64,000 nucleotides of DNA from Acinetobacter larvae (GTDB lineage Bacteria > Pseudomonadota > Gammaproteobacteria > Pseudomonadales > Moraxellaceae), in contig NZ_CP016895.1 in NCBI RefSeq assembly GCF_001704115.1, positions 1,054,001-1,118,000 on the forward strand. Direction: 5' to 3'. Below the pieces are notes generated by a model. It was given only the letters and a program-made list of their open reading frames with translations, ran no database searches and had not been told where the DNA came from. This document shows positions 7,230 to 35,667 of this stretch, one piece after another. Every line of letters begins with the position of its first letter. Position 1 is the stretch's first letter. Made by a program: the position numbers and the translations under genes.

Positions 7230-7261
7230 AATTTTTTGACACCATTTTAGTTTGTCTAAAA

Positions 7262-7347: not shown

Positions 7348-7357
7348 TTTACCAAGT

Positions 7358-7431: not shown

Positions 7432-7448
7432 ATCTCTTGGTGATGCAC

Positions 7449-7476: not shown

Positions 7477-7582
7477 TAGAAAATGTGATGAAGATGGACA
7501 TAAAAACATCATCTAAAATAAATTCAGCTAAATAATCATGTATTATTTGCAAACTTGTTCGAATCTTGGCTGGAGATGTATT

Positions 7583-16612: not shown

Positions 16613-16631
16613 TGATAATAATTATCATTTA
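16613..16631 (+). promoter_or_regulatory. Fur box upstream of the first fecI-type gene
   Basis: TTGATAATAATTATCATTT closely matches the 19-base Fur consensus (GATAATGATAATCATTATC) and lies 50 bases before the sigma factor start. Iron repression of this signalling pair is inferred. Confidence 0.75.
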
Positions 16632-16681
16632 TGTATATACTTCGAAAGTCCTTGTAACAGAATGAACAAAAGGCTCATCAG

Positions 16682-17215
16682 ATGTCTAGTTTTTCTAATT
16701 TGACTATAAATATACAGAATAAGGCGAAATTCAATCAATTTTATCTAGAAAATTATCATTGGTTGTATAACTGGTTATGTCGTAAATTAAGTTCCGCGCA
16801 TCAAGCAGAAGATATTCTTCAAGATACTTTCCTTAAAATTTTTGTTAGCCCTGAAACGATTACTCAGATTAAAGAGCCACGCCCTTATTTAGCGACGACG
16901 GCTAAACATTTAATATTGAATCATTGGCGTCGTCAGAAAATTGAAGAAAATTATTTAAAATTTTTAGCGGAGCAACAAGAGGAGCTTGTTGCTGACCCAG
17001 AGCATGTATTTATTTTAATGCAAACCATTGATCGCGTTGCAAGTGTGTTAGCGCTTTTACCAAAGCGGCAGAGATTAGCGATGATTATGCATTATATAAA
17101 GGATATTCCACAAACTCAGATTGCGGTACATTTTAATGTTTGCCGAAAAACTATACAGAGAGATTTGGCAGAAGCTTTAGTATTTTGTCATATTGAAATG
17201 GCGAAGTTACACTAA
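16682..17215 (+). CDS. FecI-type ECF sigma factor (pair 1)
   Basis: The 177-residue protein is an iron-starvation ECF sigma factor. Region 2 spans about 20-85 (HWLYNWLCRKL, EDILQDTFLKIF, PYLATTAKHLILNHWRR). Region 4 spans about 115-170 (LLPKRQRLAMIMHYIKDIP, then a helix-turn-helix ending RKTIQRDLAEAL). FecI proteins direct transcription of TonB-receptor genes when a FecR partner relays substrate binding. Its stop codon abuts the FecR start directly with no gap. A Fur box precedes it. The likely targets are the two STN receptors immediately downstream, which share a candidate promoter motif. Confidence 0.9.
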   Translation: MSSFSNLTINIQNKAKFNQFYLENYHWLYNWLCRKLSSAHQAEDILQDTFLKIFVSPETITQIKEPRPYLATTAKHLILNHWRRQKIEENYLKFLAEQQEELVADPEHVFILMQTIDRVASVLALLPKRQRLAMIMHYIKDIPQTQIAVHFNVCRKTIQRDLAEALVFCHIEMAKLH

Positions 17216-18193
17216 ATGGCACTTCAACAAGATTTTGATGCGACTGAAAAGCAGCAAATAATGCAACAGGCTGCTTTATGGCTGGTCAAAATGAGCAGCG
17301 ATGATCGAACAGATGCTGATCAAGAAGCATTTGAGCAATGGCTGCAGCAAAATCCAAAACATTTAAAACAATTACAAGCTTTAGAAAAAACCTTAGGTAA
17401 TTTCTATCAGTTAAAGCAACAAAATACACCACAAGCAATATCGAATACATTAGAGCAAAGTTTTTTATGGAATGGTCGCTCTGCATTACTGATTTTATTT
17501 TCTACCCTCATGATATTGGCTATGAGTTGGAAAGTTTTACCAACGCAACAATGGTTTGCAGATACCAAAACCACTTATGATCAATGGCAAGAACAGCTAC
17601 TGAGTGATCATAGTGAAATAAAGATTTCTGGAACGACTGCTTATGATATTCGATTTAATCAGCAGCAGCGGTTAATTGATTTATACCGTGGCAATATTTT
17701 AGTAGACGTTGCTAAAGATGCACAGCGCCCATTTATTGTAAAAACTAAAAATGCCAAGATTACAGCATTGGGAACGCGCTTTATTATACATCATTATGAT
17801 GATGTCACGATTTTAACCATGTTGGAGTCAAAAACAAAAGTTGAATTACTGGGTGAAAATAGAGATAAACATCCCGCTATAACTGTTGCTGCTGGGCAGC
17901 AGCTTATTTTAAATAAGCAAGGTGTGATTGCACAGACAAATGTTCCAACGACCTTATTTGAAGAGGCATGGCAGCAACATATGTTGGTGGTGCAAGATAT
18001 GCCTTTATCACATGTATTAGGCATATTAAAAACCTATTCTTCAATGGGGATCACATTTGAGGCAGAATCCTTACAAGATGTGAAAGTTAGTGCAACATTG
18101 CCATTAAATGATGATGGTATTGATTTGCTGAGTAAGAGTTTTAATTTAAAAGTAGAAAAAAGTTTATGGGGTAAATGGAAGATTACAAAATAA
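17216..18193 (+). CDS. FecR-type sigma regulator (pair 1)
   Basis: The 325-residue protein has the FecR layout. A cytoplasmic DUF4880-like N-terminus (about 12-60, with AALWLVKMSSD and FEQWLQQNP) contacts the sigma factor. One membrane segment follows at about 90-107. The periplasmic FecR domain runs about 130-230 (GTTAYDIRFNQQQR, NILVDVAKDAQRPF, ALGTRF). A C-terminal STN-like region would contact the receptor's own STN domain. It starts on the base after the fecI stop. It is a close paralogue of the FecR at 47340-48383, and both share the GNILVDV..D.QRPF block. Confidence 0.9.
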   Translation: MALQQDFDATEKQQIMQQAALWLVKMSSDDRTDADQEAFEQWLQQNPKHLKQLQALEKTLGNFYQLKQQNTPQAISNTLEQSFLWNGRSALLILFSTLMILAMSWKVLPTQQWFADTKTTYDQWQEQLLSDHSEIKISGTTAYDIRFNQQQRLIDLYRGNILVDVAKDAQRPFIVKTKNAKITALGTRFIIHHYDDVTILTMLESKTKVELLGENRDKHPAITVAAGQQLILNKQGVIAQTNVPTTLFEEAWQQHMLVVQDMPLSHVLGILKTYSSMGITFEAESLQDVKVSATLPLNDDGIDLLSKSFNLKVEKSLWGKWKITK

Positions 18194-18226
18194 ATGAATC
18201 CCAGAAATCCAATATTATAGTTCTTC

Positions 18227-19467
18227 AAAAATATTTTAGTATTTTATGTCCCACCGTATTGCGCTCAAGTGTCCTTGTTATAACAAAACATGAAAATTGA
18301 CACAATTTGCGTTGGGGCAAGTGTAATGAAAAATAAACATAAGCCATTTGGCTTTGCATTAAAACCGATGGCTGTCGCAATTCATATGGCATTGACTGTC
18401 GCTGTACTGACAACCTCTACAGTGGTCATGGCAGATGAAATACGTGTGCAACACTATAATATTCAGGCTGGAGATTTGGTAACGGCATTAAACCAATTCG
18501 CTTTACAGTCAAAAGTTGCGTTGGTTGGGGACAATAAAAAATTAACTGGTTTAAAGAGCAGTGGTTTAATCGGAAGTTATGGTGTAGAGCAAGGCTTTGC
18601 CAAACTGCTAGAGCAGAGTAATTTGCACGCTCAAAAAACGCAGTTGGGTTATATGATTGTAGAAAAGCCCAAAGCCCAGCCATCTGCTGAGCCCCAGCAT
18701 CAAGCGATGCAATATCCAGCAAACCCGATTACAGATGATGCCAATGCATTACCAGTGATTGAATTACGTGCCAGTCAGAGTTTGGCGGATCAATCTAAAA
18801 ATAACTATACCGTGAGTCGTTCAAGCAGTGCGACTAAACTCGATTTGGCATTAAAAGATACCCCGCAAAGCATCAGCATTATCACGCAGAAACAAATAGA
18901 AGAACAAAACCTACAAAATGTGAATGATGTATTAGAGGCGACGCCAGGCATTACCGTTTCAAACTTTGGTGTCCCTGGCGCAGGACGGGCGACATTTTAT
19001 TCTCGGGGTTATGAAATCAGTAATGTTATGGTTGATGGTAACCCGACTTTAATTAGTGGTTCACGTGGTATGGAGTTACTGGCAGGTTATGACACGATTA
19101 TCTATGATCGCGTTGAAGTGACTCGGGGGTCTACGGGTTTAAGTACAGGAACAGGTGATCCATCAGGGAGTATAAACTTTGTCCGTAAGCGACCAAGTAA
19201 AGAAGCGGAAGGTAGTGCGAAATTAAGTTATGGTCGTTGGGATAAAAAGCGAGTAGAGCTAGATGTTTCTCAGCCCTTTAATCAAGATGCATCGATTAGA
19301 GGGCGCTTTGTCGCGGCTTATAGTCAGGGAGATAGTTATATCGACCGCCTGTCAGAAGAGTCGAAAATATTTTATGGGATTATAGAAGCAGATCTAGGAG
19401 ATCAAACGACACTGGCATTAGGCGGAACATTTTTTGATAAAGATGTTGATGCAGCAAGCCCACATAT
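18227..19467 (+). repeat. Near-identical 1.24-kb direct repeat (first copy)
   Basis: This segment covers the promoter region and the first third or so of the receptor gene. It recurs at 21236-22476 with only scattered single-base differences, at a constant offset of 3009 bases. Downstream the two copies are a mosaic of identical and divergent stretches. Confidence 0.9.
18246..18274 (+). promoter_or_regulatory. Candidate ECF (FecI-type) promoter of receptor 1
   Basis: ATGTCC and GTCC are separated by 19 bases, about 50-80 bases before the receptor start. The same arrangement occurs before the second receptor (21255-21283) and, as ATGTCC-N19-GTCT, before the siderophore receptor at 36733-39249. 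Inferred from this sharing only. Confidence 0.4.
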
Positions 19468-21025
19468 GACATCTGGAGCAAGTAGTGATCCTTTAAGTCG
19501 AGGAGAATTTGATGGTGGTCGATACTGGAATGCGGCAACCGACTGGTCTTATGCGCATATCCGTAATTGGAATGGTTTTATTACTTTAGACCACAAATTT
19601 AATGATAACTGGAAGCTCTCAACCAATTATCAATATAGTAAAAGTACTCCAGACCGTAAATGGGGAGTGATTGGCTCTAGTTGGTATAATGAAGAATATA
19701 ATACGGCAAGTTATAGTATAGGACGAGAGAAACCTAATTCAGATATTCATAATTTAGATATGACCTTAATGGGTAAATTTAATTTATTTGGTCGAGAGGC
19801 ACAGATTGCCACAGGTATAAATGGTTATCAATCTAAAACTTTCGATCCTATTTATGGGACAAGAATTTATATCGAATGTCATGAAGGAAAAAAAACAAAA
19901 CAAGGATGTGTGAATTTAGATGATTGGAATAATGGTGCAATGCCATATCCAGAGAATACAAGTGGTGTATATAAAATGTTTTACGGTCAATTTCCAATAG
20001 ATGATTATCGTAATACATATTATGATCGTACAGAACGTCAATATGGCTATTTTTTTAGCACAAAGTTTGAGCCTTTAGAACGATTAAAAGTTATATTGGG
20101 TACACGCTATAATCATTATAATATTTATACAGACTATTATTTAAAGGGTAATCCAAGTGATGATTATGCTTATAATTATAAACCAAAAGATAAGTGGATT
20201 CCTTATGCAGGCTTAATTTACGATTTAACTGAAAATACGACCGCCTATGCAAGTTATACAGGAATCTATAAAACCCAGCTTGAAAAAGATTTATATGATG
20301 AGTTTTTACCTTTTGTAGAAGGTAATTCCTATGAGATGGGAGTTAAAAGTTCATTATTTAATGACACATTAAATCTACATACAGCAATTTTTAGAATGCA
20401 GGAAGAAAATACCCCGCATTATTATGCTATGGTGCCCGTAAATCCTGAAACTGGACAACAATATAGATGTACTAATCCCTTAGGGGGATTAGAGTGTGAC
20501 CCTAAGTTTGTAGATGAGGGTTCAACAATTACTGGTTTTGAAATAAGTGCAGCAGGTCAACTTACGCCAGCTTGGTTAATTAATGCTGGCTATACTTATT
20601 TACATGTAGATAGAGTCAGCAGAAAACAAGATGGCTTTTCTTATGCTATGACTTCAGGAATTTACAGTTATGAGCGACCCAAACATGCCATAAATTTTTC
20701 CACAAGTTATCAGTTAAATGATGATTTAACGATTGGTGGTGCTGCACGCTGGAAAAGTAAGACAACTCAGGGACTCAGTGGTTGTATGATACAGTCTGAT
20801 GGTACGGAGTCTTGTAGTTCTAATAAAGACTATTTATATAATCAAGTAGGTAATCAAGGTAGCTTTATTATCGTCGATCTTATGGGGCGTTATAAGATAA
20901 ATGAGCATCTTGTTGCTGGTCTAAATATCTCTAATTTATTTGATAAATCTTATAAACGTAATTATATGGCGAGCTTATATGGCGAGCCTAGAAATATTAC
21001 GATTTCATTAAGTTCTAAGTTTTAA
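18326..21025 (+). CDS. TonB-dependent siderophore-type receptor with STN domain (tandem copy 1)
   Basis: I place the start at ATG 18326, after GGGGC, giving MKNKHKPFGF and a signal peptide ending VVMA. The upstream ATG 18290 lacks a ribosome site. The 899-residue product has an STN domain (about 40-110, YNIQAGDLVTALNQFALQSK), TonB box LPVIELRAS, then a plug with TPQSISIITQKQIEEQNLQN and the 22-strand barrel ending in SSKF. The plug wording is that of siderophore (FpvA/FhuE-like) receptors. STN plus adjacent fecI/fecR means it probably signals as well as transports. Loop Cys pairs (ECHEG..GCVN, RCTN..LECD) differ from copy 2. The ligand is unknown. Confidence 0.88.
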   Translation: MKNKHKPFGFALKPMAVAIHMALTVAVLTTSTVVMADEIRVQHYNIQAGDLVTALNQFALQSKVALVGDNKKLTGLKSSGLIGSYGVEQGFAKLLEQSNLHAQKTQLGYMIVEKPKAQPSAEPQHQAMQYPANPITDDANALPVIELRASQSLADQSKNNYTVSRSSSATKLDLALKDTPQSISIITQKQIEEQNLQNVNDVLEATPGITVSNFGVPGAGRATFYSRGYEISNVMVDGNPTLISGSRGMELLAGYDTIIYDRVEVTRGSTGLSTGTGDPSGSINFVRKRPSKEAEGSAKLSYGRWDKKRVELDVSQPFNQDASIRGRFVAAYSQGDSYIDRLSEESKIFYGIIEADLGDQTTLALGGTFFDKDVDAASPHMTSGASSDPLSRGEFDGGRYWNAATDWSYAHIRNWNGFITLDHKFNDNWKLSTNYQYSKSTPDRKWGVIGSSWYNEEYNTASYSIGREKPNSDIHNLDMTLMGKFNLFGREAQIATGINGYQSKTFDPIYGTRIYIECHEGKKTKQGCVNLDDWNNGAMPYPENTSGVYKMFYGQFPIDDYRNTYYDRTERQYGYFFSTKFEPLERLKVILGTRYNHYNIYTDYYLKGNPSDDYAYNYKPKDKWIPYAGLIYDLTENTTAYASYTGIYKTQLEKDLYDEFLPFVEGNSYEMGVKSSLFNDTLNLHTAIFRMQEENTPHYYAMVPVNPETGQQYRCTNPLGGLECDPKFVDEGSTITGFEISAAGQLTPAWLINAGYTYLHVDRVSRKQDGFSYAMTSGIYSYERPKHAINFSTSYQLNDDLTIGGAARWKSKTTQGLSGCMIQSDGTESCSSNKDYLYNQVGNQGSFIIVDLMGRYKINEHLVAGLNISNLFDKSYKRNYMASLYGEPRNITISLSSKF

Positions 21026-21063
21026 CTAGGCAGTAGAATGGTTAAAATTTTGAGTTAATGTTA

Positions 21064-21108
21064 AAAGACCATTATACGATTGATTGTGATTTGATGATGG
21101 TCTTTTTA
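21064..21108 (+). terminator. Probable terminator after receptor copy 1
   Basis: AAAGACCAT and ATGGTCTTT arms around a long AT-rich loop, followed by T residues, 40 bases after the receptor stop. The same AGACCATC arm sequence is reused in the hairpin at 24943-24981. Confidence 0.55.
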
Positions 21109-21254
21109 TATTGCATTGAAAGATTGAGCATAAAAGTATAATTATTAAATTTAGCCTTCAAGTAAATGTTCAGTCTAAGTTTTTAAAAACCTAAAAATAA
21201 AATAGCTTGCTAAAACATATATTTATAATTTTTTTAAAAATATTTTAGTATTTT

Positions 21255-21283
21255 ATGTCCCACCGTATTGCGCTCAAGTGTCC
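21255..21283 (+). promoter_or_regulatory. Candidate ECF promoter of receptor 2
   Basis: An exact copy of the ATGTCC-N19-GTCC arrangement at 18246-18274, carried in the duplicated segment. It would let the second receptor be expressed independently of the first despite the terminator between them. Confidence 0.4.
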
Positions 21284-21334
21284 TAGTTATAACGAAACAT
21301 GAAAATTGACACAATTTGCGTTGGGGCAAGTGTA

Positions 21335-24016
21335 ATGAAAAATAAACATAAGCCATTTGGCTTTGTATTAAAACCGATGGCTGTCGCAATTCATATGGCA
21401 TTGACTGTCGCTGTACTGACAACCTCTACAGTGGTCATGGCAGATGAAATACGTGTGCAACACTATAATATTCAGGCTGGAGATTTGGTAACGGCATTAA
21501 ACCAATTCGCTTTACAGTCTAAAGTTGCGTTGGTTGGGGACAATAAAAAATTAACTGGTTTAAAGAGCGGTGGTTTAATCGGAAGTTATGGTGTAGAGCA
21601 AGGCTTTGCCAAACTGCTAGAGCAGAGTAATTTGCACGCTCAAAAAACGCAGTTGGGTTATATGATTGTAGAAAAGCCCAAAGCCCAGCCATCTGCTGAG
21701 CCCCAGCATCAAGCGATGCAATATCCAGCAAACCCGATTACAGATGATGCCAATGCATTACCAGTGATTGAATTACGTGCCAGTCAGAGTTTGGCGGATC
21801 AATCTAAAAATAACTATACCGTGAGTCGTTCAAGCAGTGCGACCAAACTCGATTTGGCATTAAAAGATACCCCGCAAAGCATCAGCATTATCACGCAGAA
21901 ACAAATAGAAGAACAAAATCTACAAAATGTGAATGATGTATTAGAGGCGACGCCAGGCATTACCGTTTCAAACTTTGGTGTCCCTGGTGCAGGGCGCGCG
22001 ACATTTTATTCTCGGGGTTATGAAATCAGTAATGTTATGGTTGATGGTAATCCGACTTTAATCAGTGGTTCACGTGGTATGGAGTTACTGGCAGGTTATG
22101 ACACGATTATCTATGATCGCGTTGAAGTGACTCGGGGGTCTACGGGTTTAAGTACAGGAACGGGTGATCCATCAGGGAGTATAAACTTTGTCCGTAAGCG
22201 ACCAAGTAAAGAAGCGGAAGGTAGTGCGAAATTAAGTTATGGTCGTTGGGATAAAAAGCGAGTAGAGCTGGATGTTTCTCAGCCCTTTAATCAAGATGCA
22301 TCGATTAGAGGGCGCTTTGTCGCGGCTTATAGTCAGGGAGATAGTTATATCGACCGCCTGTCAGAAGAGTCGAAAATATTTTATGGGATTATAGAAGCAG
22401 ATCTAGGAGATCAAACGACACTGGCATTAGGCGGAACATTTTTTGATAAAGATGTTGATGCAGCAAGCCCACATATGACCAGTGCAGTGGTAGATGAATC
22501 GGTAGCAAATGGTGTGTTTGATGGTGGTCGGAACTGGAATGCGGCAACCGATTGGTCTTATGCGCACATTCGTAATTGGAATGGTTTTATTACTTTAGAC
22601 CACAAATTTAATGATAACTGGAAGCTCTCAACCAATTATCAATATAGTAAAAGTACTCCAGACCGTAAATGGGGAGTGATCGGTTCTAGTTGGTATAATG
22701 AAGAATATAATACAGCAAGTTATAGTATAGGACGAGAGAAACCTAATTCAGATATTCATAATTTAGATATGACCTTAATGGGTAAATTTGATTTATTTGG
22801 TCGAGAGGCACAGATTGCCACAGGTATAAATGGTTATCAATCTAAAACTTTCGATCCTATTTATAATAATGAGATTTATCAACCATGTAGAGTTGGAACA
22901 ACCAATGTTAATCCATGTGTAAGCTTAGATGATTGGAATAATGGTGCTATGCCATATCCAGAGAATAGTGGTATCTTTAAAATAAAATATGGTCAATTCC
23001 CAATAGATGATTATCGTAATTCATATTATGATCGTACAGAACGTCAATATGGCTATTTTTTTAGTACAAAGTTTGAGCCTTTAGAACGATTAAAAGTTAT
23101 ATTGGGTACACGCTATAATCATTATAATATTTATACAGACTATTATTTAAAGAGTAATCCAAGTGATGATTATGCTTATAATTATAAACCAAAAGATAAA
23201 TGGGTTCCTTATGTTGGTTTAATTTATGATTTAGCAGAAAACACTACCATTTATGGTAGCTATACTGGTATTTATAAGACACAATTAAAGAAAGATATAT
23301 ATGATGATTTTCTACCATTTATTGAAGGTAACTCTTATGAGGTAGGATTGAAGAGCTCATTATTTAATGACACTTTAAATCTTTCAACTGCCATATTTAG
23401 AATGAAAGAAGAAAATGTAGCAACAAATTATTTTGGCGGCGTACCCAAAGATGAAAATGGAAAAAACTATACATGTACAAATGTAGAAAGTGATGCATCA
23501 ACAAGCACATGTGTTCCAAAATATGCTGCTGATGGACCAACGGTTACAGGCTTTGAAGTAACTGCACAAGGTCAGATTACACCTGATTGGCTAATTCACG
23601 CTGGCTATACTTATTTACATATAGAGCAACCTGTCGATGGTTATGCTCGCTTAAATTCATTGAGCATGACAAATGGTGATTATAGTTATGAAAGACCAAA
23701 ACATGCTATTAACTTGACGACATCTTATAAAGTGATTGATGATTTAACAGTTGGCGGATCTTTACGTTGGAAAAGTAAAACAACTCAAGAAGCTAATTTA
23801 TTAACAACCCAAGGTAAAGAAATGGATGTCAATAGTATTCTATCTCAAGGAAGTTTTATGGTGGTTGATTTAATGGGTCGTTATAAAATTAATGATTATG
23901 TAAGTGCTGGGTTAAATATCAATAACCTATTTGATAAATCATATAAGACAAATTCCTTAGCAAGTTTATATGGTACACCACGTTCAGCAACAGTTTCGCT
24001 GAATTTTAAATTTTAA
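21335..24016 (+). CDS. TonB-dependent siderophore-type receptor with STN domain (tandem copy 2)
   Basis: The 893-residue paralogue of the preceding receptor starts at ATG 21335 by the same logic. The signal peptide, STN domain, TonB box, plug and early barrel are almost identical to copy 1. Differences begin abruptly in an extracellular loop (TSAVVDESVANGVF versus TSGASSDPLSRGEF). Identity resumes, and the copies then diverge strongly over the last third, including the Cys-containing loops. The final strand is LNFKF. Duplication followed by loop diversification suggests different or changing ligands. The Slam-substrate gene follows 126 bases downstream. Confidence 0.88.
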   Translation: MKNKHKPFGFVLKPMAVAIHMALTVAVLTTSTVVMADEIRVQHYNIQAGDLVTALNQFALQSKVALVGDNKKLTGLKSGGLIGSYGVEQGFAKLLEQSNLHAQKTQLGYMIVEKPKAQPSAEPQHQAMQYPANPITDDANALPVIELRASQSLADQSKNNYTVSRSSSATKLDLALKDTPQSISIITQKQIEEQNLQNVNDVLEATPGITVSNFGVPGAGRATFYSRGYEISNVMVDGNPTLISGSRGMELLAGYDTIIYDRVEVTRGSTGLSTGTGDPSGSINFVRKRPSKEAEGSAKLSYGRWDKKRVELDVSQPFNQDASIRGRFVAAYSQGDSYIDRLSEESKIFYGIIEADLGDQTTLALGGTFFDKDVDAASPHMTSAVVDESVANGVFDGGRNWNAATDWSYAHIRNWNGFITLDHKFNDNWKLSTNYQYSKSTPDRKWGVIGSSWYNEEYNTASYSIGREKPNSDIHNLDMTLMGKFDLFGREAQIATGINGYQSKTFDPIYNNEIYQPCRVGTTNVNPCVSLDDWNNGAMPYPENSGIFKIKYGQFPIDDYRNSYYDRTERQYGYFFSTKFEPLERLKVILGTRYNHYNIYTDYYLKSNPSDDYAYNYKPKDKWVPYVGLIYDLAENTTIYGSYTGIYKTQLKKDIYDDFLPFIEGNSYEVGLKSSLFNDTLNLSTAIFRMKEENVATNYFGGVPKDENGKNYTCTNVESDASTSTCVPKYAADGPTVTGFEVTAQGQITPDWLIHAGYTYLHIEQPVDGYARLNSLSMTNGDYSYERPKHAINLTTSYKVIDDLTVGGSLRWKSKTTQEANLLTTQGKEMDVNSILSQGSFMVVDLMGRYKINDYVSAGLNINNLFDKSYKTNSLASLYGTPRSATVSLNFKF

Positions 24017-24142
24017 CTAGATAGGAGAATTAATGGCATTTAAAGAGTATTTTTAGTTTTAGTAAGAGTTTATAATATAGATTATAAACGGAATATCTTA
24101 AAAGTTATATATCATATAGTTCTTAGAACAATGGAGTTTAGA

Positions 24143-24898
24143 ATGTTAAATAAATCATTATTTAAAATGGGTTTGATTGCAGCATCGATTTTTACAGCTT
24201 CACTTGCTTCAGCAGATGTAGGATTTGGACAAAGTCTCCAAAACTTTACCTTTGATAATAAATATCAAGGTACTTTTTCTTACAATAATAAGGTCTACGG
24301 TGCCGGTAGTACCAATGTTGATTTAAGTTCTTTACCATATGGTACAAATGGTTTTTATCGTACATCGGATAATAGTATTTATCGTATTTATAAACAGAGC
24401 TATTCAGCGGTTATCGGTAATATTACTCCTCGCAATGCAGACCGTAGTTTTATACGAGATGTGGCTGGAGAGGCGACATTGGCAAGTACTTTACCAGCAC
24501 AAGCAAGCTATAACTATACCGGTACAGTATTTAATCATATTGAAGGGACTGAAGGTCAACTCAATTATAATGTCAACGTAAACGGCAGTACAGTAAAAGG
24601 GTCTGGTTCATTTACTGGTGTAACGGGTAACCGCCCAGGTGTGGGACCATTTGAGTTATCTGGTACATTGCATGAAGTCAATTTTACAGCTTCAGGTGGT
24701 AAATTAAACCCAGCATCAGGTTCAGCAAGTTTAAATATTAAGGATGTTGCAAGCAATCAAACTGAATCATTGAGTGGTTCTAAATATGATATTGGATTAT
24801 ATGGTCCTAATGCTGCAGAGGTTGCCGGTGCAATTCATGGCGGTCAGCTGGAAGCATTGATTGGCGGTTATGGTATCGCGGGTACCAAAAACCCTTAA
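24143..24898 (+). CDS. Slam-dependent hemophore-like secreted beta-barrel protein (locus 1)
   Basis: The 251-residue protein has a Sec signal peptide (MLNKSLFKMGL to LASA) without a lipobox, so it should be secreted or only loosely held. ATG 24143 is chosen because GGAG lies six bases upstream; ATG 24131 overlaps that site. The second half shows the barrel seen in TbpB-lobe, fHbp and hemophilin Slam substrates: ATLASTLPAQASYNYTG, LNYNVNV, GSGSFTGVTG. It ends with YGPNAAEVAGAIHGGQ, the Slam-substrate signature. A Slam gene follows directly. Only three His residues are present in the mature protein (NHIEG, LHEVN, IHGGQ). Its neighbours are siderophore-type receptors, so the ligand may not be heme. 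Confidence 0.75.
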   Translation: MLNKSLFKMGLIAASIFTASLASADVGFGQSLQNFTFDNKYQGTFSYNNKVYGAGSTNVDLSSLPYGTNGFYRTSDNSIYRIYKQSYSAVIGNITPRNADRSFIRDVAGEATLASTLPAQASYNYTGTVFNHIEGTEGQLNYNVNVNGSTVKGSGSFTGVTGNRPGVGPFELSGTLHEVNFTASGGKLNPASGSASLNIKDVASNQTESLSGSKYDIGLYGPNAAEVAGAIHGGQLEALIGGYGIAGTKNP

Positions 24899-24918
24899 TG
24901 TTTTGATCCACGGAAGTT

Positions 24919-24940
24919 AGGCAACGACAGCCTTTTTTTT
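24919..24940 (+). terminator. Intrinsic terminator after the locus 1 Slam substrate
   Basis: A short AGGC/GCCT stem with a seven-base loop is followed by eight T residues, 20 bases after the stop codon. The stem is weak but the T run is good. Confidence 0.55.
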
Positions 24941-24942
24941 AA

Positions 24943-24981
24943 AGACCATCAAGTAAATGATTATCATTTGCTTGATGGTCT
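24943..24981 (+). promoter_or_regulatory. 18-base hairpin with a Fur-box core between hemophore-like gene and Slam
   Basis: Arms of 18 bases (one G/T wobble) flank the loop TTA. The central 15 bases AAATGATTATCATTT (24955-24969) are a perfect Fur-type palindrome. The element lies 96 bases before the Slam gene. It could be an operator for Slam, a transcript hairpin, or both. Confidence 0.55.
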
Positions 24982-25077
24982 ATTGATTGTCTTTGTTTTA
25001 GATTTTTATATTGATTAGACATCAATGGGTTTTTCATGATGTATTTTGAAAATAAGTATTAGAGGAATTTTGTTTGC

Positions 25078-26610
25078 ATGCATGCTTTAAGCCGATTAGC
25101 CTTTCAAGAACTACATTGTTTAACTTACTTTTTAAAACTAAAAACAGTGATTATTGGCGGAATATGTTGCATCGTATTTAGTGGTGAGATATTGGCAGAG
25201 ACATCATCTCGTTTAAGCCCTGAACCTTTAGATAATCTGGGGATATTAAAGCCTAATTGGAATAATCAAGCACATGAACTGAATGAACAACAAAAAGCTA
25301 TTTTAGATGCACAAACTGAAAAAACAAAACATGCAAATGTTGAACTCAGTGATGAGGATTTAAAAAAGAATCCTCAATTTGCTGAAATTATTATTCAAAC
25401 AGCAATTCAACGTCGTGATTGGACGACGGTAGAACAAGTCTTAGCGATTTATAAGCAGCATCCTCAGCATGATGAAATGTTGGTATTCTATGCCCAAGGT
25501 GGATTATTGCGTTATCAAGGGCATTATCAACAAGCGATTGCACAATATCGTGAGATGTTAGAACGTGATGCAAGTTTAGATTATGTCAGATTTGATTTGG
25601 GCGTCATGTTCTTTGAAAATAAACAATATCGAGATGCTGAGCGGCAATTGCAAGCAACTCGAGATAACCCACAAGTTTCTCAAGAATTTAGAGCTTTGTC
25701 AGAGCAATTTTTAAAACAAGTATCACAACGTGAAAGAATAAATAGTAAAGTAAAATTCAGATTGCTGCATAATGATAATGTTAACCAAGCAACAGATAAT
25801 GTTTATTTGGAAATAGGAAATCTTATTTTAAAAAAAGATCCACGTTATATGCCTAAATCTTCAGTCGGCAGTAATTATGCATTAAGCCTAGAGCAGGACT
25901 ATAATATCAAGACCAACCATTTTATAAGTTGGAGTACTTCCGTAGATGGGTTAAATTATGCCAGCGCACATGACTTTGATGAACATGCAATCAATGCTGA
26001 TTTGCAATATAAATGGCAAAATGCAAAATCATGGTTCTATATTGGTCCATCATTCGAATGGCGTTGGTTAGACCAAACTCGTTATCTGGACAATTATGGC
26101 ATCGCTGCAAGTGCTGGTCATTGGTTAAGCCCACGTTGGCAGGCGTCGTTATATACTCGGTGGTCAGATAAGTCTTATAAAAACTCAGCTTATGCTGCTT
26201 ATAATGGCAATACTTTAACCATATCACCGACACTAGTCTATTTATGGTCACCGAAAACTGCTATTTTTGCTGGCATTATAGGACAACAAGAAAATCTAAA
26301 ATTAGACAGTGAATCTTTTAAGCAATATGGTGTAAATTTTGGACTTAGCAAAGAATGGGATAATGGCATCAATGTGCTCACACAAATACAATGGGCGCGA
26401 CGTCATTACAATAAAAATAATCCAGTATTTCAATATAAACGTGAAGATGATCGTTTAAATGCTGTACTTTCTTTGGGATATAAAAAGTTTAATTTTATGG
26501 GAGTAGAACCCAAACTGAGCTTTCAAATGGATGATGTCGACAGTAATATCGATGCTTTATATTCCAGAGTCATCAAACAATGGATATTAAGTTTCGAAAA
26601 GAAATTTTAA
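25078..26610 (+). CDS. Slam-family outer-membrane translocator (locus 1)
   Basis: Slam proteins carry surface lipoproteins or hemophores across the outer membrane. The 510-residue product has a signal sequence (hydrophobic IIGGICCIVFSGEILA). A periplasmic TPR-like helical region follows at about 95-225 (FYAQGGLLRYQGHYQQAI, VRFDLGVMFFENKQYRDAE). The C-terminal 14-strand-type barrel (DUF560) runs from about 230, opening VKFRLLHNDNVNQA, and ends in the outer-membrane signature SFEKKF. It follows the Slam-substrate gene in the same direction, the usual client-translocator pairing. An upstream 18-base hairpin with a Fur-like core may control it. It resembles the Slam at 44115-45602 in architecture. 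Confidence 0.85.
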   Translation: MHALSRLAFQELHCLTYFLKLKTVIIGGICCIVFSGEILAETSSRLSPEPLDNLGILKPNWNNQAHELNEQQKAILDAQTEKTKHANVELSDEDLKKNPQFAEIIIQTAIQRRDWTTVEQVLAIYKQHPQHDEMLVFYAQGGLLRYQGHYQQAIAQYREMLERDASLDYVRFDLGVMFFENKQYRDAERQLQATRDNPQVSQEFRALSEQFLKQVSQRERINSKVKFRLLHNDNVNQATDNVYLEIGNLILKKDPRYMPKSSVGSNYALSLEQDYNIKTNHFISWSTSVDGLNYASAHDFDEHAINADLQYKWQNAKSWFYIGPSFEWRWLDQTRYLDNYGIAASAGHWLSPRWQASLYTRWSDKSYKNSAYAAYNGNTLTISPTLVYLWSPKTAIFAGIIGQQENLKLDSESFKQYGVNFGLSKEWDNGINVLTQIQWARRHYNKNNPVFQYKREDDRLNAVLSLGYKKFNFMGVEPKLSFQMDDVDSNIDALYSRVIKQWILSFEKKF

Positions 26611-26814: not shown

Positions 26815-29220
26815 ATGGCTATCCATCTCCCAAAACAATTTAGGTTGAGTGTTATGAGTGCTGTGGTCTGGTCAGCGCTATATTCTACCGCTTCTGCTCA
26901 GTCAGAAAATCATACGACATCCGAGATAAAAACCTTAGATACCATTGTTGTGACTGGTACGCGTAGTTTAAAACGTTCCAAGACTGAGTCGTTACAACCG
27001 ATTGATGTGATTAGTGCGCAGGAGTTAAGTGAGCGTACTGGCAGCAGTGAATTGGGCACGGCACTGTCTCGTATTATTCCATCGATTAATTTCCCTCGCC
27101 CAACCGTAGTGGATGGGACTGAGTTGGTTCGCCCAGCGCAATTAAAAGGGCTTTCACCTGATCAAGTGTTGGTTTTGGTGAATGGAAAACGTCGTCATAG
27201 TGGTGCATTTATTAATTTAGGTGGAACAGTAGGGCGTGGTTCAGCCCCAACCGATTTAAATGCGATTCCGATGAGTGCAATTAGTCGCATTGAAGTGCTA
27301 AGAGAAGGGGCATCTGCACGTTATGGCTCCGATGCGATTGCAGGGGTGATTAATATTATTTTAAAGTCAGACCCAGCTCAGGGGGAAGTTGGACTACGTT
27401 ATGGTGTGCATAATAAAGGCGATGGCGAGCAAAAACAAAGCTATATTTCTGGTGGTGCTGATTTAAATGACCATGGCTATGTGATATTTAGTGGTGAGTG
27501 GCAAGATAATGAAGCAACCAATCGTGCCGGTTTGGACCGCCGTGATGCGACGTCTAGCACCTATGGACAACGAAGCTTTAAATTTGGTGATCCTAAATCA
27601 GATGAAGTGAAAGCTGCCGTTAATGCTGCTTATGCATTTTCTGATGCAGCAGAACTTTATGGTTTTTCTACCTATAGTCACCGTAATGCCGAAACAGCTA
27701 GTTTCTATCGACTCAGCAATGCCAGTAATAATATTCCAGCTTTATATCCAGACGGTTATTTGCCGATTGTAAAAGGACAATTAGATGATTTTGCCGCGGT
27801 AACAGGTATACGTGGTGATTTGGGGGCTTGGCATTATGATGCTTCGCTGAATTATGGCTTAAACCAATATGATCTGAATACACGTACCGTCAATGTCGAT
27901 TTATACAAAGATACAGGCAGTACGCCTTTGGGGTTTTATAATGGCGCATTAAAAAATAGTCAAACTGTCATCAATGCTGACTTTTCGCGAGAGATTCCAA
28001 TAGCCGTCTTGGCAACGCCTTTAAATCTTGCTTTGGGTGCGCAGTATTTAAAACAACAATATCAAATTAAAGCAGGTGATCCTGCATCATATTATAAAAG
28101 TGGTGCATCTGGTTTGGCTGGATTTAGACAAGCCGATGCAGGCAAATGGTCTAGAGATAGTTATGCGGCTTATCTGGATTTAGAGACAGATATTAGCGAT
28201 CGTTTAGCGGCATCGACGGCCTATCGTTATGAGCATTATGATGATTTTGGTGATAGCAATAATGCATCATTATCACTACGTTATCGCTTGCATCCTGCAC
28301 TTGCACTGCGAGGCAGTGTTTCGACAGGTTTTCGTGCGCCGAGCTTAGCACAACAATATTTTACCCAGACCTCATCACAATTGGTCAATGCACAAATGAC
28401 AGAAGCAGGAACCTTTCCGAGTAATGCGCCGGTCGCACAATTATTGGGTGCTGAAGATTTAAAAGCAGAGAAGTCCAAAAACTATAGTGTAGGTTTGGTT
28501 TTTACGCCAACAGATCAACTTTATATTACTTTAGATGCTTATCAAATTGATATTGATGGTCGTATTAGCTTATCTTCAAACATAGATGCAAGCAGTGCAA
28601 CGGTAAAACAGTATTTAGCCGCACATGGTATTACCGATAGCAATTTTGGTTCCGTACGTTATTTTAACAACGCCAGTGATACCCGTACCCGTGGGATAGA
28701 TTTGGTTGTCAATTATCAATGGCAGCATTTACCTTATGGAGAACTCACCACATCCTTGGCGTATAACTACAATAAAAATAAAGTCACGGATATTGATGCC
28801 AACCCTGAGGTGTTAAATGCTTTGGGCATTAATTTGACGCGTTTAGATCGTCGTGAACAATATGGTTTATTGGCAGGGAGTACGCCAGAGCATAAACTCA
28901 GTTTGGCAAATGATTATAAAATTAATAATTTTCTGATTCATACCAATTTGACGCGCTATGGTAGTTTTAAAAGCTTTAATAATGCAGGGGAAGCCAAGGA
29001 TCAAAAATTTTCCGCCAAATGGTTATTAGATCTCGCCTTGTCATACCAGCTGAATCAATGGAATATCACTGTGGGCGGCGATAATATTACCGATGTTTAT
29101 CCTGATCAGGATGTTTATGATATTAATCAACCGACAGGGGGGAGTTTACCTTATAGTCAATTCTCACCTTTTGGTTTCAATGGTGCATTTTATTATGGCA
29201 AAGTCAGTTATAAGTGGTAA
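26815..29220 (+). CDS. TonB-dependent receptor without STN domain
   Basis: The 801-residue protein has a signal peptide ending ASAQ and TonB box LDTIVVTGTR. The plug carries VLVLVNGKRRHSGAF and RIEVLREGASARYGSDAIAG, and the barrel ends in KVSYKW. There is no STN domain, so it is a transporter only and not a FecR signaller. The NGKRRH-type plug is seen in a broad receptor subfamily of mixed substrates; the ligand cannot be named. It follows the locus 1 Slam gene by about 200 bases with its own presumed promoter, and a strong terminator follows. Whether it belongs functionally to locus 1 is unclear. Confidence 0.85.
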   Translation: MAIHLPKQFRLSVMSAVVWSALYSTASAQSENHTTSEIKTLDTIVVTGTRSLKRSKTESLQPIDVISAQELSERTGSSELGTALSRIIPSINFPRPTVVDGTELVRPAQLKGLSPDQVLVLVNGKRRHSGAFINLGGTVGRGSAPTDLNAIPMSAISRIEVLREGASARYGSDAIAGVINIILKSDPAQGEVGLRYGVHNKGDGEQKQSYISGGADLNDHGYVIFSGEWQDNEATNRAGLDRRDATSSTYGQRSFKFGDPKSDEVKAAVNAAYAFSDAAELYGFSTYSHRNAETASFYRLSNASNNIPALYPDGYLPIVKGQLDDFAAVTGIRGDLGAWHYDASLNYGLNQYDLNTRTVNVDLYKDTGSTPLGFYNGALKNSQTVINADFSREIPIAVLATPLNLALGAQYLKQQYQIKAGDPASYYKSGASGLAGFRQADAGKWSRDSYAAYLDLETDISDRLAASTAYRYEHYDDFGDSNNASLSLRYRLHPALALRGSVSTGFRAPSLAQQYFTQTSSQLVNAQMTEAGTFPSNAPVAQLLGAEDLKAEKSKNYSVGLVFTPTDQLYITLDAYQIDIDGRISLSSNIDASSATVKQYLAAHGITDSNFGSVRYFNNASDTRTRGIDLVVNYQWQHLPYGELTTSLAYNYNKNKVTDIDANPEVLNALGINLTRLDRREQYGLLAGSTPEHKLSLANDYKINNFLIHTNLTRYGSFKSFNNAGEAKDQKFSAKWLLDLALSYQLNQWNITVGGDNITDVYPDQDVYDINQPTGGSLPYSQFSPFGFNGAFYYGKVSYKW

Positions 29221-30083: not shown

Positions 30084-30105
30084 TTTAAAAGTGTATCACC
30101 TGCTT

Positions 30106-30651
30106 ATGACCATTCCTCAACAACAAATGATCAATGCTTTGGTCGTACATCATGATGAGCTGGTCAATTATATTCATCGCCGTTTTGGCAACCGAAATTT
30201 CGCCATTGAAGTTGTACAAGAAACATGCTTGCGCATATTAACCAAAAAGCGTGATGATTTTAATTCCTTACATGCTGCATTGCCCTTACTCAAACATATA
30301 AGTTTGCAGCTGGCGATTGATTTATATCGACGTGATCAGGTACGCCGTCAATATATCGATGAGGATTTAGATTGGTCGGAGCAGGTGGAAATTGTGGCTG
30401 AGCAAAGACTGACATTGCCCGAGTTATCATTGGCCAAACAACAATATCAACACATTGTCGTTCAGGCGATACACGCTTTACCCGAGGCTTGCCAAGAGGT
30501 GTTTATTTTAACCCAACTCTATCATTTAACTCAGCATGAAGCGGCAGCAGAACTGGGTATTTCAAGAGCAATGATTAATAAGCATCTCAACCGTGCTTTA
30601 CAGTTATTGGTACCGATCTTATTTCAACAGCAGGATCATATTGCATCATGA
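30106..30651 (+). CDS. FecI-type ECF sigma factor (pair 2)
   Basis: The 181-residue protein is a divergent ECF sigma factor. Region 2 (VNYIHRRFGNRNFAIEVVQE, RILTKKRDDF, LQLAIDLYRRDQ) spans about 20-90. Region 4 (ALPEACQEVFILTQLYHLT, then ELGISRAMINKHLNRAL) spans about 120-170. ATG 30106 is preferred over an in-frame GTG at 30091. It overlaps the FecR gene by ATGA, implying translational coupling. A Fur box precedes it. The likely target is the large STN-bearing heme-type receptor at 31756. Confidence 0.85.
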   Translation: MTIPQQQMINALVVHHDELVNYIHRRFGNRNFAIEVVQETCLRILTKKRDDFNSLHAALPLLKHISLQLAIDLYRRDQVRRQYIDEDLDWSEQVEIVAEQRLTLPELSLAKQQYQHIVVQAIHALPEACQEVFILTQLYHLTQHEAAAELGISRAMINKHLNRALQLLVPILFQQQDHIAS

Positions 30652-31553
30652 AACGGCAACCCAATGCTGAATCGGCCAAAGCACATGCCTATGCTTTACG
30701 CGATCTACAAGATGTGATCGCCCCCATAGAAGATCATCTTTTGGCGCAATTACCCAGTAAAGATGAGATTATTCAACGTGCGAAAAAACGTCGTTTGCAT
30801 CAGCACATGCGGCATTTAATGGTTGCTGCTATTTTTCTATCGGGTATTTTGCTTTATGCCATTAACCCGGTCTATCAGACTGAACATTTGCAAACCGCGC
30901 TTGGGCAGACTCAAGGTGTTGAATTGAAAGATGGTAGTCGCATTCATCTCAACAGCGCAACACGTATGCAGGTGCAATATCGTTTGCGTTCGAAAAATAT
31001 TGAACTCTATCAAGGGGAAGCAAGTTTTGAGGTGGAGCACTATGCGCACACTTGGCTTAGACCCTTCGAGCGCGCTTTTATGGTACGTTCTGGTTCTTTG
31101 TTGGTAGAAGATATTGGTACCGTGTTTAATGTTCGGCATTTTGATGCTCAACACAGCCAAGTCACGGTGCTGCAAGGTAAAGTACGTGTTTCTATCGTCG
31201 ATCAACCGCAACAGGCTGCGTTGGAGCTAGAGCAACAACAGGCTGTTGAACAAGTAGGGCAACGCTTAAGTTTATATCAAGTCAAAGATTTAGATCAGGT
31301 GACGGCATGGCAGCAGGGTTATTTACAATTTAAAGCATTGCCATTAGCACAAGTGATTGCTTCATTTCAGCGTTATCAGAAAGTTGATGTGCAGTTGCAT
31401 GATGCACTGAGTCGTGAGTTTAAAATTTCCGGACGTTTTCAATTCGACCAAGCTGAACAATTTATGCAGATATTGCCACAGATTAGCCCATTGCAGGTGC
31501 GTCAAGATCCTCAATCTGGGCAGTGGCAAATCGCTGCGATAACTTATGATTAG
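30648..31553 (+). CDS. FecR-type sigma regulator (pair 2)
   Basis: The 301-residue protein lacks a clear DUF4880 N-terminus, unlike pair 1. It has a basic cytoplasmic region ending AKKRRLHQHMRH, then one membrane segment at about 52-70. The periplasmic FecR domain follows (VELKDGSRIHLNSATRMQVQ, IELYQGEASFEVEHY, DIGTVFNVRHF, VTVLQGKVRV). A C-terminal STN-like part closes the protein (VIASFQRYQKVDVQLHD). Its start overlaps the sigma stop codon. It would sense ligand-loaded receptor 31756-34890 through STN contact. Confidence 0.88.
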   Translation: MKRQPNAESAKAHAYALRDLQDVIAPIEDHLLAQLPSKDEIIQRAKKRRLHQHMRHLMVAAIFLSGILLYAINPVYQTEHLQTALGQTQGVELKDGSRIHLNSATRMQVQYRLRSKNIELYQGEASFEVEHYAHTWLRPFERAFMVRSGSLLVEDIGTVFNVRHFDAQHSQVTVLQGKVRVSIVDQPQQAALELEQQQAVEQVGQRLSLYQVKDLDQVTAWQQGYLQFKALPLAQVIASFQRYQKVDVQLHDALSREFKISGRFQFDQAEQFMQILPQISPLQVRQDPQSGQWQIAAITYD

Positions 31554-31755
31554 AGGGCTAATGATTAGAGAGCTAAAAGTTGATTGGCGCTATATTTTAC
31601 GGTAAATGGCGTAAATCGCTTATTGAAGGTTATTTTTAAGTATTCTTAAAAAGAAGTATTTTTTAAAATAATTCTTGTTTGAAGGTATACAGTGCGGCAC
31701 TGCAAAACGGTAATACAAATGAAGCAGTTGAAAAATCATTTGTAGAGGGGCAGAT

Positions 31756-34700: not shown

Positions 34701-34890
34701 CAATACACCTTTGGCTTGGAATTCGATGATTATACTCGATGCCTATGTAAATTATCGTCTACAAGAGGATACGGTGTTTGAATTGGTCGGTACCAATTTA
34801 ACGGATGAATTTTATATCGATCCATTAACACGTTCTTCAATGGCAGCACCCGGGCGCACCTTAAAGTTGAGTATTAGCCATAAATTCTAA
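31756..34890 (+). CDS. Heme/hemoprotein-type TonB receptor with STN domain
   Basis: GAGGGG precedes the ATG. The 1044-residue protein has a signal peptide (ending LHA), an STN domain at about 37-115 (HLAAQPLAQAVEQLAKQAN), TonB-box-like LSPITLYG and a plug (DLFKGMVGVYSGDARNSGA, GPGRVPVLIDGTEQ). The large barrel contains a FRAP-like YRMPSMFES followed by LEPEHAHNYEVAY. These are features of the hemoglobin/heme receptor group (HpuB/HasR-like). It is much longer than most receptors because of a large insertion at about 655-755, shared in position with the receptor at 39634. It is the probable partner of FecI/FecR pair 2 upstream. Confidence 0.88.
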   Translation: MRLESDRNAQSAQRQWKLKVMSLLVSSLLYTTALHADDRVLNIHLAAQPLAQAVEQLAKQANIQIVYASSALDQHHISALSGQYTIEQALQRLVQGRNLSLQKNGAVWTIIEKPAAIQSHKTALSTAIQSEDKMHTVLSAEASPEAPSEILTLSPITLYGVVDRDTQGYNAVYSDDISSVYAGKEQIERYKGAQPADLFKGMVGVYSGDARNSGALDPSIRGIQGPGRVPVLIDGTEQALTVWRGYNGANNRSYIDPNLIGGLQVIKGPSLTRNVNSGVGGAVVISTLSVNDVLKAGKNFGGEIKVETSSNAVKPREPQLLTGQSIYDNPNYPPAYQFGNNILFEPFYDPSLFKPVRSSRENSLYSGDDVAGRIALAGRTEQFELLAAYAYRNKGNHFSGKRGSAYYDKPVQGRFDYTPYLAKVYPAGTEVPNTSLETESYLIKAVWKPTDEQRLELGYRDTAITNGEILPSRIAWDSLVQDKTGVPQWPLSHTDAKAYNLEYKYQPQGSRLIDFYSNLWRTDTQSATYSAGGFPNDANKELGIFVNSAVAHADNTRQGVTISNKFNLFSHLDLTLGGSFQKEKLSSEDMYRDPYTTGSNAGFKMLPRAGEREEREFNVNVHYQPSNWLTLNAGVRYQNYWAFDRFLADQVNAGDASFAKVWKETSKAMEYYTKREDMTPEREQELWELVNSYGYTPAQTQEQFIRVVYKQKNKVNYKTDERGKYTVANNPFLNGTVTATDYQRVAFSGTEYDVIDLTETGVQKKKDHGWTPTLSATVNFSSNSRIYLRYSEAYRMPSMFESTIGFSGSQSGYKLEPEHAHNYEVAYIHDFSDLFKSSSFADIKLSYYHNKTENAIERSPTLVFSNVDSHTIEGLELQSRFDNGRFFTDFSANYNLQNKVCDEHSAMLLGMSHNFEISRCVDDGFVGGYLLSMATPKYSAHWTVGGRWFDQQLELGARASYMHKYENPETKNYNGTEISYYSNTPLAWNSMIILDAYVNYRLQEDTVFELVGTNLTDEFYIDPLTRSSMAAPGRTLKLSISHKF

Positions 34891-35098
34891 ATAAAGATTT
34901 AGCCATTCCTCGCTAACAGCTCTAAAGAGTCTAAAGGGTCTAAGGTGATCTAACTCGCCGAACCACGTTTAAATGAGGTCATGATTTTAAGCGTGGTGAG
35001 CATCCTTTTAAAGAATGGGGGAAGCGTTACGATGATTAACATGAACCTATTAACCTGACATTGTTGTTGGATTACTTGAACAGATAATCATTTTTAAA

Positions 35099-35116
35099 AG
35101 ATAATAATTCTTATCT
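35099..35116 (+). promoter_or_regulatory. Fur box upstream of the third fecI-type gene
   Basis: AGATAATAATTCTTATCT is a near-perfect palindrome of Fur type. A further GATAATCATT element lies just upstream at 35083, suggesting a double site. The sigma gene starts 56 bases downstream. Confidence 0.7.
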
Positions 35117-35171
35117 GCCTTGATTTTTGTTAAGATAGTCTTCATTCATTAATCTCTCCCTTATTGAAGTC

Positions 35172-35657: not shown

Positions 35658-35667
35658 ATATCTTGTT

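Follow-up and report, generated by a model that had tools for sequence, protein, structure and literature searches.

A candidate siderophore uptake locus of Acinetobacter larvae encoding a soluble, probably Slam-exported fHbp-fold protein

The ligands named for T11SS/Slam cargo proteins in the sources cited here are heme, transferrin, lactoferrin, hemoglobin, cobalt, and factor H. In the HphA/HphR/HsmA system of A. baumannii (PMC8560813), a soluble Slam-exported barrel protein is encoded beside a TonB receptor and follows a capture-and-deliver logic. A larger group of T11SS cargo with a lipoprotein C barrel, encoded beside cluster 1 T11SS genes, was catalogued in 2025 and comprises 285 soluble and 54 lipidated proteins (PMC12282271); section 15 of that paper gives no ligand for the group, and the word 'siderophore' is absent from its main text. 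For the lipidated fHbp itself, in vitro binding of xenosiderophores has been cited (Veggi 2012, via PMC5607398 and PMC5472700); according to one review, a physiological role of this binding was never demonstrated (PMC5472700). The XusAB system of Bacteroides relies on an extracellular protein to which a ferric catechol siderophore binds before its delivery to a TonB-dependent transporter (PMC13142918).

Here we describe a locus of A. larvae in which a Slam gene and a soluble cargo gene adjoin siderophore-type receptor genes. An earlier note had called this a candidate undescribed uptake system, which stands in part: soluble fHbp-like T11SS cargo had already been catalogued, i.e. the 2025 group without a ligand in section 15, and no description of such a T11SS/Slam-siderophore system was found among the titles and abstract beginnings listed by topic searches of an open-licence library.

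Gene organization of the A. larvae locus

The window, i.e. the whole 64,000-nucleotide stretch of A. larvae DNA that was analysed, contains at 16613-26610 six intact, collinear ORFs. Their order (fecI, fecR, two receptors, secreted protein, Slam) is that given in the earlier note. The features are as follows.

16613..16627, +, Fur-like operator 5' of fecI; exact match to TGATAATNATTATCA (15-mer, 0 mismatches)
16682..17215, +, fecI-like ECF sigma factor, 177 aa; Sigma70_r2 and r4_2
17216..18193, +, fecR-like anti-sigma/sensor, 325 aa; PF04773 FecR (62.8 bits) and DUF4880
18247..18274, +, 28-bp element, copy 1; candidate FecI-type promoter
18290..21025, +, TonB-dependent receptor 1 (TBDT1), 911 aa, FauA/FhuE-like; TIGR01783, 262 bits
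21256..21283, +, 28-bp element, copy 2; identical 28-mer
21299..24016, +, TonB-dependent receptor 2 (TBDT2), 905 aa; TIGR01783, 280 bits
24143..24898, +, secreted cargo, 251 aa, predicted fHbp-like double barrel; FHBP_C, signal peptide by eye, no Cys
24943..24981, +, 18-pair hairpin in the cargo-Slam gap; possible attenuator
25078..26610, +, Slam/T11SS outer-membrane exporter, 510 aa; PF04575 (185 bits) and PF24575 (111 bits)

The cargo start at 24143 was chosen to fit the relatives; the longest ORF opens at 24131. FecI is the best NCBIfam model for the fecI product, with a score under the equivalog cut-off.

Three Fur-like sites were observed in the window against 0.03 expected (scan with up to 1 mismatch). 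Of the two besides the operator at 16613, one falls within the cargo gene (24253). The two copies of the 28-bp element each lie 5' of a receptor gene, and the element is absent from the relatives' loci scanned, even at up to 8 mismatches. Terminator-like sites, including the cargo-Slam hairpin, number 13 in the region versus 6.2 expected, whereas a sigma-70 promoter scan found no excess (41 versus 45.5 expected).

Both receptors contain Plug and TonB barrel domains and pass the TIGR01783 cut-off of 223.5 bits, in agreement with their earlier description as siderophore-type receptors. The best-scoring models for receptor 1 are FauA and FhuE, and the nearest solved structures for TBDT2 are FhuE, FauA, and FpvA. 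Both receptors are also unlike HphR (29% over 261 aa), and both score under the cut-offs of the heme receptor models TIGR01785 and TIGR01786. The claim that they bear an STN domain needs rewording: Pfam STN is unlisted for either receptor at E <= 1e-3, whereas a FecA N-terminus model matches residues 26-123, with FecI-like and FecR-like genes alongside. Along the alignment of the two receptor genes, nucleotide identity falls from 98.9% in the initial 1,100 columns to 88.0% in the 900 that follow and 60.2% in the final 648. The plug and putative signalling parts are shared and the last barrel part differs, so that each receptor probably has its own ligand or loaded state.

The cargo matches FHBP_C (PF08794) at 49.6 bits (cut-off 28.1), its sole listed domain at E <= 1e-3. 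The predicted model of the 24143 product, which the earlier note had described as a secreted barrel protein, has the fHbp fold and covers both barrels of the mature protein, and 2w80, the fHbp-factor H structure, is among its structure matches. All seven full-length cargo proteins counted, including that of the window, contain no Cys and thus no site for the lipidation expected of the fHbp family. From sequence and predicted structure, the cargo is shown to have the fHbp fold, a signal of the Sec type, and no Cys for a lipid anchor. The XusB-type domain DUF4374 is unlisted for it at E <= 1e-3. Both Slam domains, SlipAM (185 bits) and TPR_Slam (111 bits), score above their cut-offs.

It is very improbable that the cargo is a second hemophore, binding heme for import by the two receptors. 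HphA_N and HphA_C are unmatched in the cargo at E <= 1e-3, on which ground an HphA-like identity was rejected; the same domain search matched the protein at 43 kb to PF22828 (HphA_N) at 1.8e-11, and A. larvae thus already has an HphA-type set. The receptors score above the siderophore cut-off and below those of the heme families, and the cargo family has no invariant His. The cargo had also been called His-poor relative to the 43-kb protein, a contrast that disappears on counting (3 His in 251 residues versus 4 in 302).

Distribution of the trio and its siderophore biosynthesis neighbours

Full-length cargo was identified in 5 of 175 Acinetobacter genomes, and the receptor-cargo-Slam trio recurs among these five carriers, three of which are species described from Populus bark. 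A contig search with a single protein returned no loci and one with an alignment returned five. Each protein database search gave two proteins, including that of the window, within the limited reach of the shared-word method used. A family-wide search found matches in 13 of 299 genomes (4 of them full-length) and a class-wide search in 3 of 369, of which one was the window's genome and the other two had weak matches; a phage collection contained no cargo match. G026, G058, and G098 match the fHbp domain weakly, and these matches were rejected as relatives of the system; those in G026 and G098 lie in proteins of 489 and 476 aa, with a different Slam adjoining and no receptor of the trio's group. 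A 1267-aa A. lwoffii plasmid protein was likewise rejected.

In three of the five carriers, the trio adjoins genes for DHB-siderophore biosynthesis, with two cluster types and three different junctions. In one (G096), the order is FecBCD-type genes, SIP, a stand-alone condensation protein, EntA, EntC, EntE, an EntB-type isochorismatase, a putative small carrier protein, and a LysA-like decarboxylase, followed by fecI, fecR, receptor, cargo, and Slam. In A. puyangensis, receptor, cargo, and Slam are followed by relatives of these biosynthesis genes at a different junction. The gene names denote best family matches, several of them under curated cut-offs (e.g. EntE, 702 versus 723.55 bits); the isochorismatase, PPTase, SIP, MatE, and condensation domains were confirmed by domain search. 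A 76-aa ORF beside the isochorismatase gene has a carrier-protein-like motif by eye.

The third carrier, A. qingfengensis, has a fimsbactin-like cluster in which the trio occupies the receptor slot. Receptor, cargo, and Slam are followed on the same strand by genes for a thioesterase, a PPTase, EntC, an isochorismatase, EntA, and NRPSs, with 2 bases between the Slam ORF (L009:7525-9018, minus) and the thioesterase ORF at its longest (6782-7522, minus). Four of the seven further fimsbactin-like loci fetched have an FbsN-type receptor (714-728 aa) between their thioesterase and MFS genes; none was found by tblastn in the A. qingfengensis sequences L009, L014, and L015.

A. larvae carries the same biosynthesis set as G096 (70-84% identical) at C1:2405.7-2414.1 kb, 1.3 Mb from its trio, and no receptor was matched in the 38 kb around it. 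In A. populi, fecR, fecI, receptor, cargo, and Slam are all retained at a chromosomal site shared with A. puyangensis, and the genome has no match to EntE (the DHB-AMP ligase) at E <= 1e-60.

The condensation protein was found in 14 of the 175 genomes (E <= 1e-60), three of them cargo carriers (hypergeometric P 0.0038), and EntE in 4 of 5 carriers against a background of at least 50 of 175 (P 0.024); these P values are modest, treat genomes as independent, and concern only five carriers. Close receptor orthologues (E <= 1e-150) occur in at least 4 of 175 genomes, all four being cargo carriers. Six candidates per genome were scored in the receptor search and at most eight in the EntE search, and these two counts are thus lower bounds.

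The cargo might instead scavenge foreign siderophores, its position near biosynthesis genes reflecting incidental clustering of iron genes. Such piracy would agree with the A. populi cassette, with the two Pseudothauera/Thauera-type cassette loci, around which ~10 kb of sequence lacks matches to these biosynthesis genes, and with the xenosiderophore binding cited for fHbp. We consider it unlikely, given that the trio stands directly at a biosynthesis cluster in three of five carriers, at different junctions of two cluster types, and takes the receptor's place in the A. qingfengensis operon.

The trio's wider receptor group also includes cargo-free members. In A. puyangensis one is present as a second copy (L093); another, of 725 aa and 32% identical, adjoins the biosynthesis cluster of G087. 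Receptor trees built by segment are mosaics: the N-terminus unites A. puyangensis and A. populi (support 98), whereas in both barrel segments A. populi groups with the A. puyangensis copy that lacks a cargo (support 100); supports for pairing the window receptors with ligands are 51-65. A conventional catechol receptor of ~708 aa has an orthologue in 16 of 16 genomes tested, including all five carriers, and the trio is therefore perhaps not their sole uptake route.

A quite improbable reading is that the cargo has no small ligand and that its partner is the receptor or a protein of a host or competitor, the cargo serving as an adhesin, a complement-type ligand, or a shield of the receptor against phage or bacteriocins. 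The fHbp fold does bind a host protein in Neisseria, and phage or bacteriocin pressure likewise predicts receptor divergence mostly in the last barrel part. This reading is at odds with the recurrence of the trio with siderophore-type receptors, joined by DHB biosynthesis genes in three of five carriers, and with the origin of three named carriers from tree bark; complement factor H would be an implausible ligand on Populus bark.

Proposed function and comparison with known systems

The location of the trio beside or inside catechol chelator clusters in three related genomes suggests that the exported protein catches the iron-loaded siderophore. From its gene content and context, the A. larvae locus is reasonably likely to be a siderophore uptake cassette that responds to iron and includes an exported protein for capture. 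Upon iron starvation, Fur would release fecIR; Sec would carry the cargo into the periplasm, and the adjacent Slam would recognise its C-terminal barrel and export it as a soluble protein. The cargo would then bind the ferric catechol siderophore and pass it to a paired receptor, which would import it with TonB while its N-terminal domain signals to FecR and FecI. In A. larvae, the ligand would most likely be a propanochelin-type bis-DHB-diamine, with the unlinked cluster responsible for its synthesis. The earlier expectation of a ligand other than heme is thus retained in its siderophore form, to which the biosynthesis neighbours, the receptor slot, and the fHbp fold point; its histidine argument is dropped.

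More tentatively, and with somewhat less than even confidence, we propose that a dedicated soluble Slam-exported protein outside Bacteroidota holds the cell's own ferric catechol siderophore and returns it to the matched receptor alone, so that a protein would privatise what is otherwise a diffusible public good. The fHbp fold would then have served siderophore capture before it came to bind factor H in Neisseria. A siderophore-serving cargo, if true, would extend the reach of T11SS/Slam to siderophores and give the soluble fHbp-like cargo class a testable role and the reported fHbp siderophore binding a natural setting. Clean comparisons are offered by A. puyangensis and A. populi (with and without biosynthesis genes) and by fimsbactin-like clusters with and without the trio.

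The locus resembles HphA/HphR/HsmA in its soluble barrel protein beside a TonB receptor and in the ECF sigma/anti-sigma pair, which is also present in the hemophilin cluster (table in PMC10483418), but its cargo carries FHBP_C and not HphA_N/HphA_C, its receptors are of the FauA/FhuE-like siderophore type and not the heme type, and its relatives have siderophore biosynthesis neighbours. Unlike lipidated fHbp, the window protein lacks a lipid-anchor Cys and is encoded with siderophore receptors, in a family with three carriers from tree bark. It shares predicted solubility, the C barrel, and the adjoining T11SS gene with the fHbp-like soluble group of PMC12282271, section 15 of which reports no match to the fHbp N-terminal domain, whereas the window cargo model matches both barrels. 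The likeness claimed to XusAB concerns the mode of action alone, which is proposed here for the window protein: XusB is a lipidated seven-bladed propeller, also present in vesicles, whereas the window protein is a soluble, probable Slam cargo with the fHbp fold. Finally, the A. qingfengensis cluster agrees with the fimsbactin cluster fbsA-Q in its kinds of genes and is similarly arranged (PMC10483418), and the fbs gene table contains neither cargo nor Slam; in place of the fbsN-type receptor, A. qingfengensis carries a receptor of another family together with a cargo and a Slam.

Genes of the cassette and the surrounding iron-uptake island

The A. larvae genome is a single contig of 3.74 Mb. 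ORF, family and Fur-site scans of the window bore out the parts and order described in the earlier note, every gene reading on the plus strand: fecI and fecR, then the two receptors, the secreted protein and finally Slam.

Iron-related features of the window
16.6-26.6 kb, plus strand: Fur-like site, fecI, fecR, two receptors (TBDT1 and TBDT2), secreted fHbp-like protein (the cargo), Slam
24943-24981: hairpin between the cargo and Slam genes
26815-29220, directly after Slam: third receptor (plug + barrel by family search), belonging to a different group
30091, 35172 and 47340-48961 (the last on the minus strand): three further sigma/FecR-type pairs
Regions 30091-39249 and 47340-48961: two further receptors, one of 1044 aa (33% identity with the HphR-like receptor) and one of 838 aa, minus strand
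39604-45602: second Slam cassette, comprising an HphR-like receptor (1113 aa), an HphA-like protein (HphA_N + HphA_C) and a Slam
49010-49024: Fur-like site (1 mismatch) just outside a minus-strand fecI at 48458-48961

The extra sigma/FecR-type pairs and receptors mark 16-49 kb as an iron-uptake island. A whole-genome search listed two Slams, both inside the window and only 24% identical, and the second cassette looks like the ordinary heme version. The hairpin could hold the exporter level below that of the cargo. The third receptor had no similar match in the relatives' loci.

The siderophore-type label given earlier to the twin receptors also held, as both passed the TIGR01783 cut-off and the heme receptor models scored below their own cut-offs. 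The best-scoring models for both were FauA and FhuE, yet below those equivalog cut-offs, and the nearest solved structures of TBDT2, searched alone, were FhuE, FauA and FpvA. Both share 29% identity over 261 residues with the HphR-like receptor. The TBDT1 and TBDT2 genes are 98.9% identical in the first 1,100 columns, 88.0% in the next 900 and 60.2% in the last 648, and each is preceded by an identical copy of a 28-bp element. This graded identity and the shared elements suggest a tandem duplication in which the signalling domain and plug were conserved and the last part of the barrel was altered.

Distribution of the receptor-cargo-Slam trio

Of 175 Acinetobacter genomes searched with a profile built from five cargo sequences, five yielded a full-length cargo and three more gave weak matches to other fHbp-domain proteins. 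The gene-order search that the earlier note had proposed found receptor, cargo and Slam collinear in all five carriers. The same order is kept in both loci found outside the genus, in Pseudothauera rhizosphaerae and Thauera sp. Sel9, the cargo frame of the latter (L098 10001-10713) being broken, either truly or by assembly. fecI and fecR lie beside the trio in every carrier except A. qingfengensis, where no FecI or FecR match was found in three fetched stretches (L009, L014 and L015).

On the mobilizable A. lwoffii plasmid pAVAci94 (L010 3857-10627), a 1267-aa fHbp-domain protein adjoins a Slam, and an ISAba1-family element separates the Slam gene from a 103-aa Slam-like piece. Another Acinetobacter cassette (L028 7921-12085, L029 6281-10471) encodes a weakly fHbp-type protein (476 or 489 aa), a Slam and a protein of ~360 aa, without any receptor of the trio's group.

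Linkage to catechol siderophore biosynthesis and the receptor position

In one carrier, Acinetobacter G096, the trio and fecIR follow a catechol cluster that has SIP and FecBCD-type genes next to it and encodes a stand-alone condensation protein, EntA, EntC, EntE, an isochorismatase, a 76-aa carrier-like ORF and a LysA-like decarboxylase. We call it VibH-type from its gene make-up, the model set containing no VibH and several family scores being below curated cut-offs. The 76-aa ORF, whose carrier-protein-like motif was recognized by eye, abuts the isochorismatase gene (L007 3618-3848; L036 13972-14202), and the isochorismatase has no carrier domain of its own in these clusters. According to PMC10296737, which also discusses its vibH homologues, Acinetobacter bouvetii produces propanochelin, butanochelin and pentanochelin; the present clusters may yield similar compounds. 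In A. puyangensis, relatives of the G096 biosynthesis genes lie downstream of Slam, with a different junction. In A. qingfengensis, the trio runs into a fimsbactin-like operon, with thioesterase, PPTase, EntC, isochorismatase, EntA, NRPS, EntE, N-monooxygenase and acetyltransferase genes on one strand and AraC, MatE, SIP and MFS genes on its other side.

Two sets of control clusters were compared. The first comprised 11 Acinetobacter genomes that encode the condensation protein and lack cargo (17-20 kb fetched each), and no stretch contained a cargo or Slam match. A conventional receptor (703-743 aa) adjoins the cluster in six, one (G087) instead has, with no cargo gene, a receptor of 725 aa that shares 32% identity with those of the trio, and the remaining four clusters gave no receptor match. 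Cargo and Slam matches were likewise absent from the stretches of seven genomes with an EntE like that of A. qingfengensis (38-40%). In four of these, a gene for an FbsN-type receptor of 714-728 aa lies between those for thioesterase and MFS; no such transport genes appear within the stretches fetched from the remaining three. The trio-bearing clusters of A. qingfengensis and A. puyangensis gave no match to a conventional receptor, and the sole receptor match besides the trio in the G096 stretch is a distant 763-aa protein (23-24%) 12 kb away. In catechol clusters of two kinds, the trio therefore occupies the usual receptor position. Conventional receptors of the two types resemble one another (33-35%), whereas the trio receptors, at 22-26% (bit scores <60 where listed), are barely related to them.

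This physical linkage and slot replacement form the real argument. EntE (E <= 1e-100) occurs in four of the five carriers (P 0.024) and is weak evidence taken alone because it is common in the genus (at least 50 of 175 genomes); the condensation protein occurs in three of five carriers and 14 of 175 genomes (P 0.0038; genomes treated as independent in both tests). A. larvae has the same biosynthesis set as G096 at C1:2405.7-2414.1 kb (70-84% identity gene by gene, including the 76-aa ORF), and thus set and cassette are present together though unlinked. No receptor matched within the 38 kb fetched around this set. The genome encodes a single strong DHB-AMP ligase (706 bits; curated cut-off, 723.55; next best, 231.5) and gave no IucA/IucC match.

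Against a link to the carriers' own siderophore, the A. populi trio and fecIR lie at the same site as in A. puyangensis, with biosynthesis genes absent from the site and the genome giving no EntE hit at E <= 1e-60. This shared site, with siderophore genes in A. puyangensis (L008) and not in A. populi (L025), is a natural gain-or-loss pair. Furthermore, a conventional catechol receptor was found somewhere in all 16 genomes tested, including the five carriers. A second A. puyangensis receptor (L093 7325-11444), which shares 88% identity with the A. populi receptor, has fecI-like and fecR-like neighbours and neither cargo nor Slam alongside; its barrel is almost that of A. populi and its N-terminus differs, indicating past shuffling of receptor parts between loci.

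Proposed mechanism and comparison with known systems

At the sequence level, the parts, order, fold and recurrence with catechol biosynthesis genes are clear. In the mechanism proposed, Fur would control the cassette, FecIR would signal, and Slam would export the cargo, which would bind a siderophore and pass it to the receptor. Bis-catechol siderophores leave open iron sites, which a Tyr or His residue of a protein can occupy; periplasmic CeuE is an example. The cargo family has invariant Tyr residues, and whether these might fill such sites, by analogy, is worth a test. PMC5607398, PMC3731240 and PMC5472700 cite Veggi et al. (2012) for in vitro binding of xenosiderophores by fHbp, a binding that, PMC5472700 adds, has no demonstrated physiological role.

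Within the openly licensed literature, we found no report combining Slam export with siderophore capture. Hemophilin already has the same chassis of Slam, soluble cargo and TonB receptor (PMC8560813), and soluble fHbp-like cargo is already catalogued in PMC12282271, the main text of which does not contain the word siderophore. Bacteroides XusB captures siderophores outside the cell, with a different fold and by a different route (PMC13142918). The Slam chassis, soluble fHbp-like cargo and extracellular siderophore capture are each known, and what would be new is a variant joining them.
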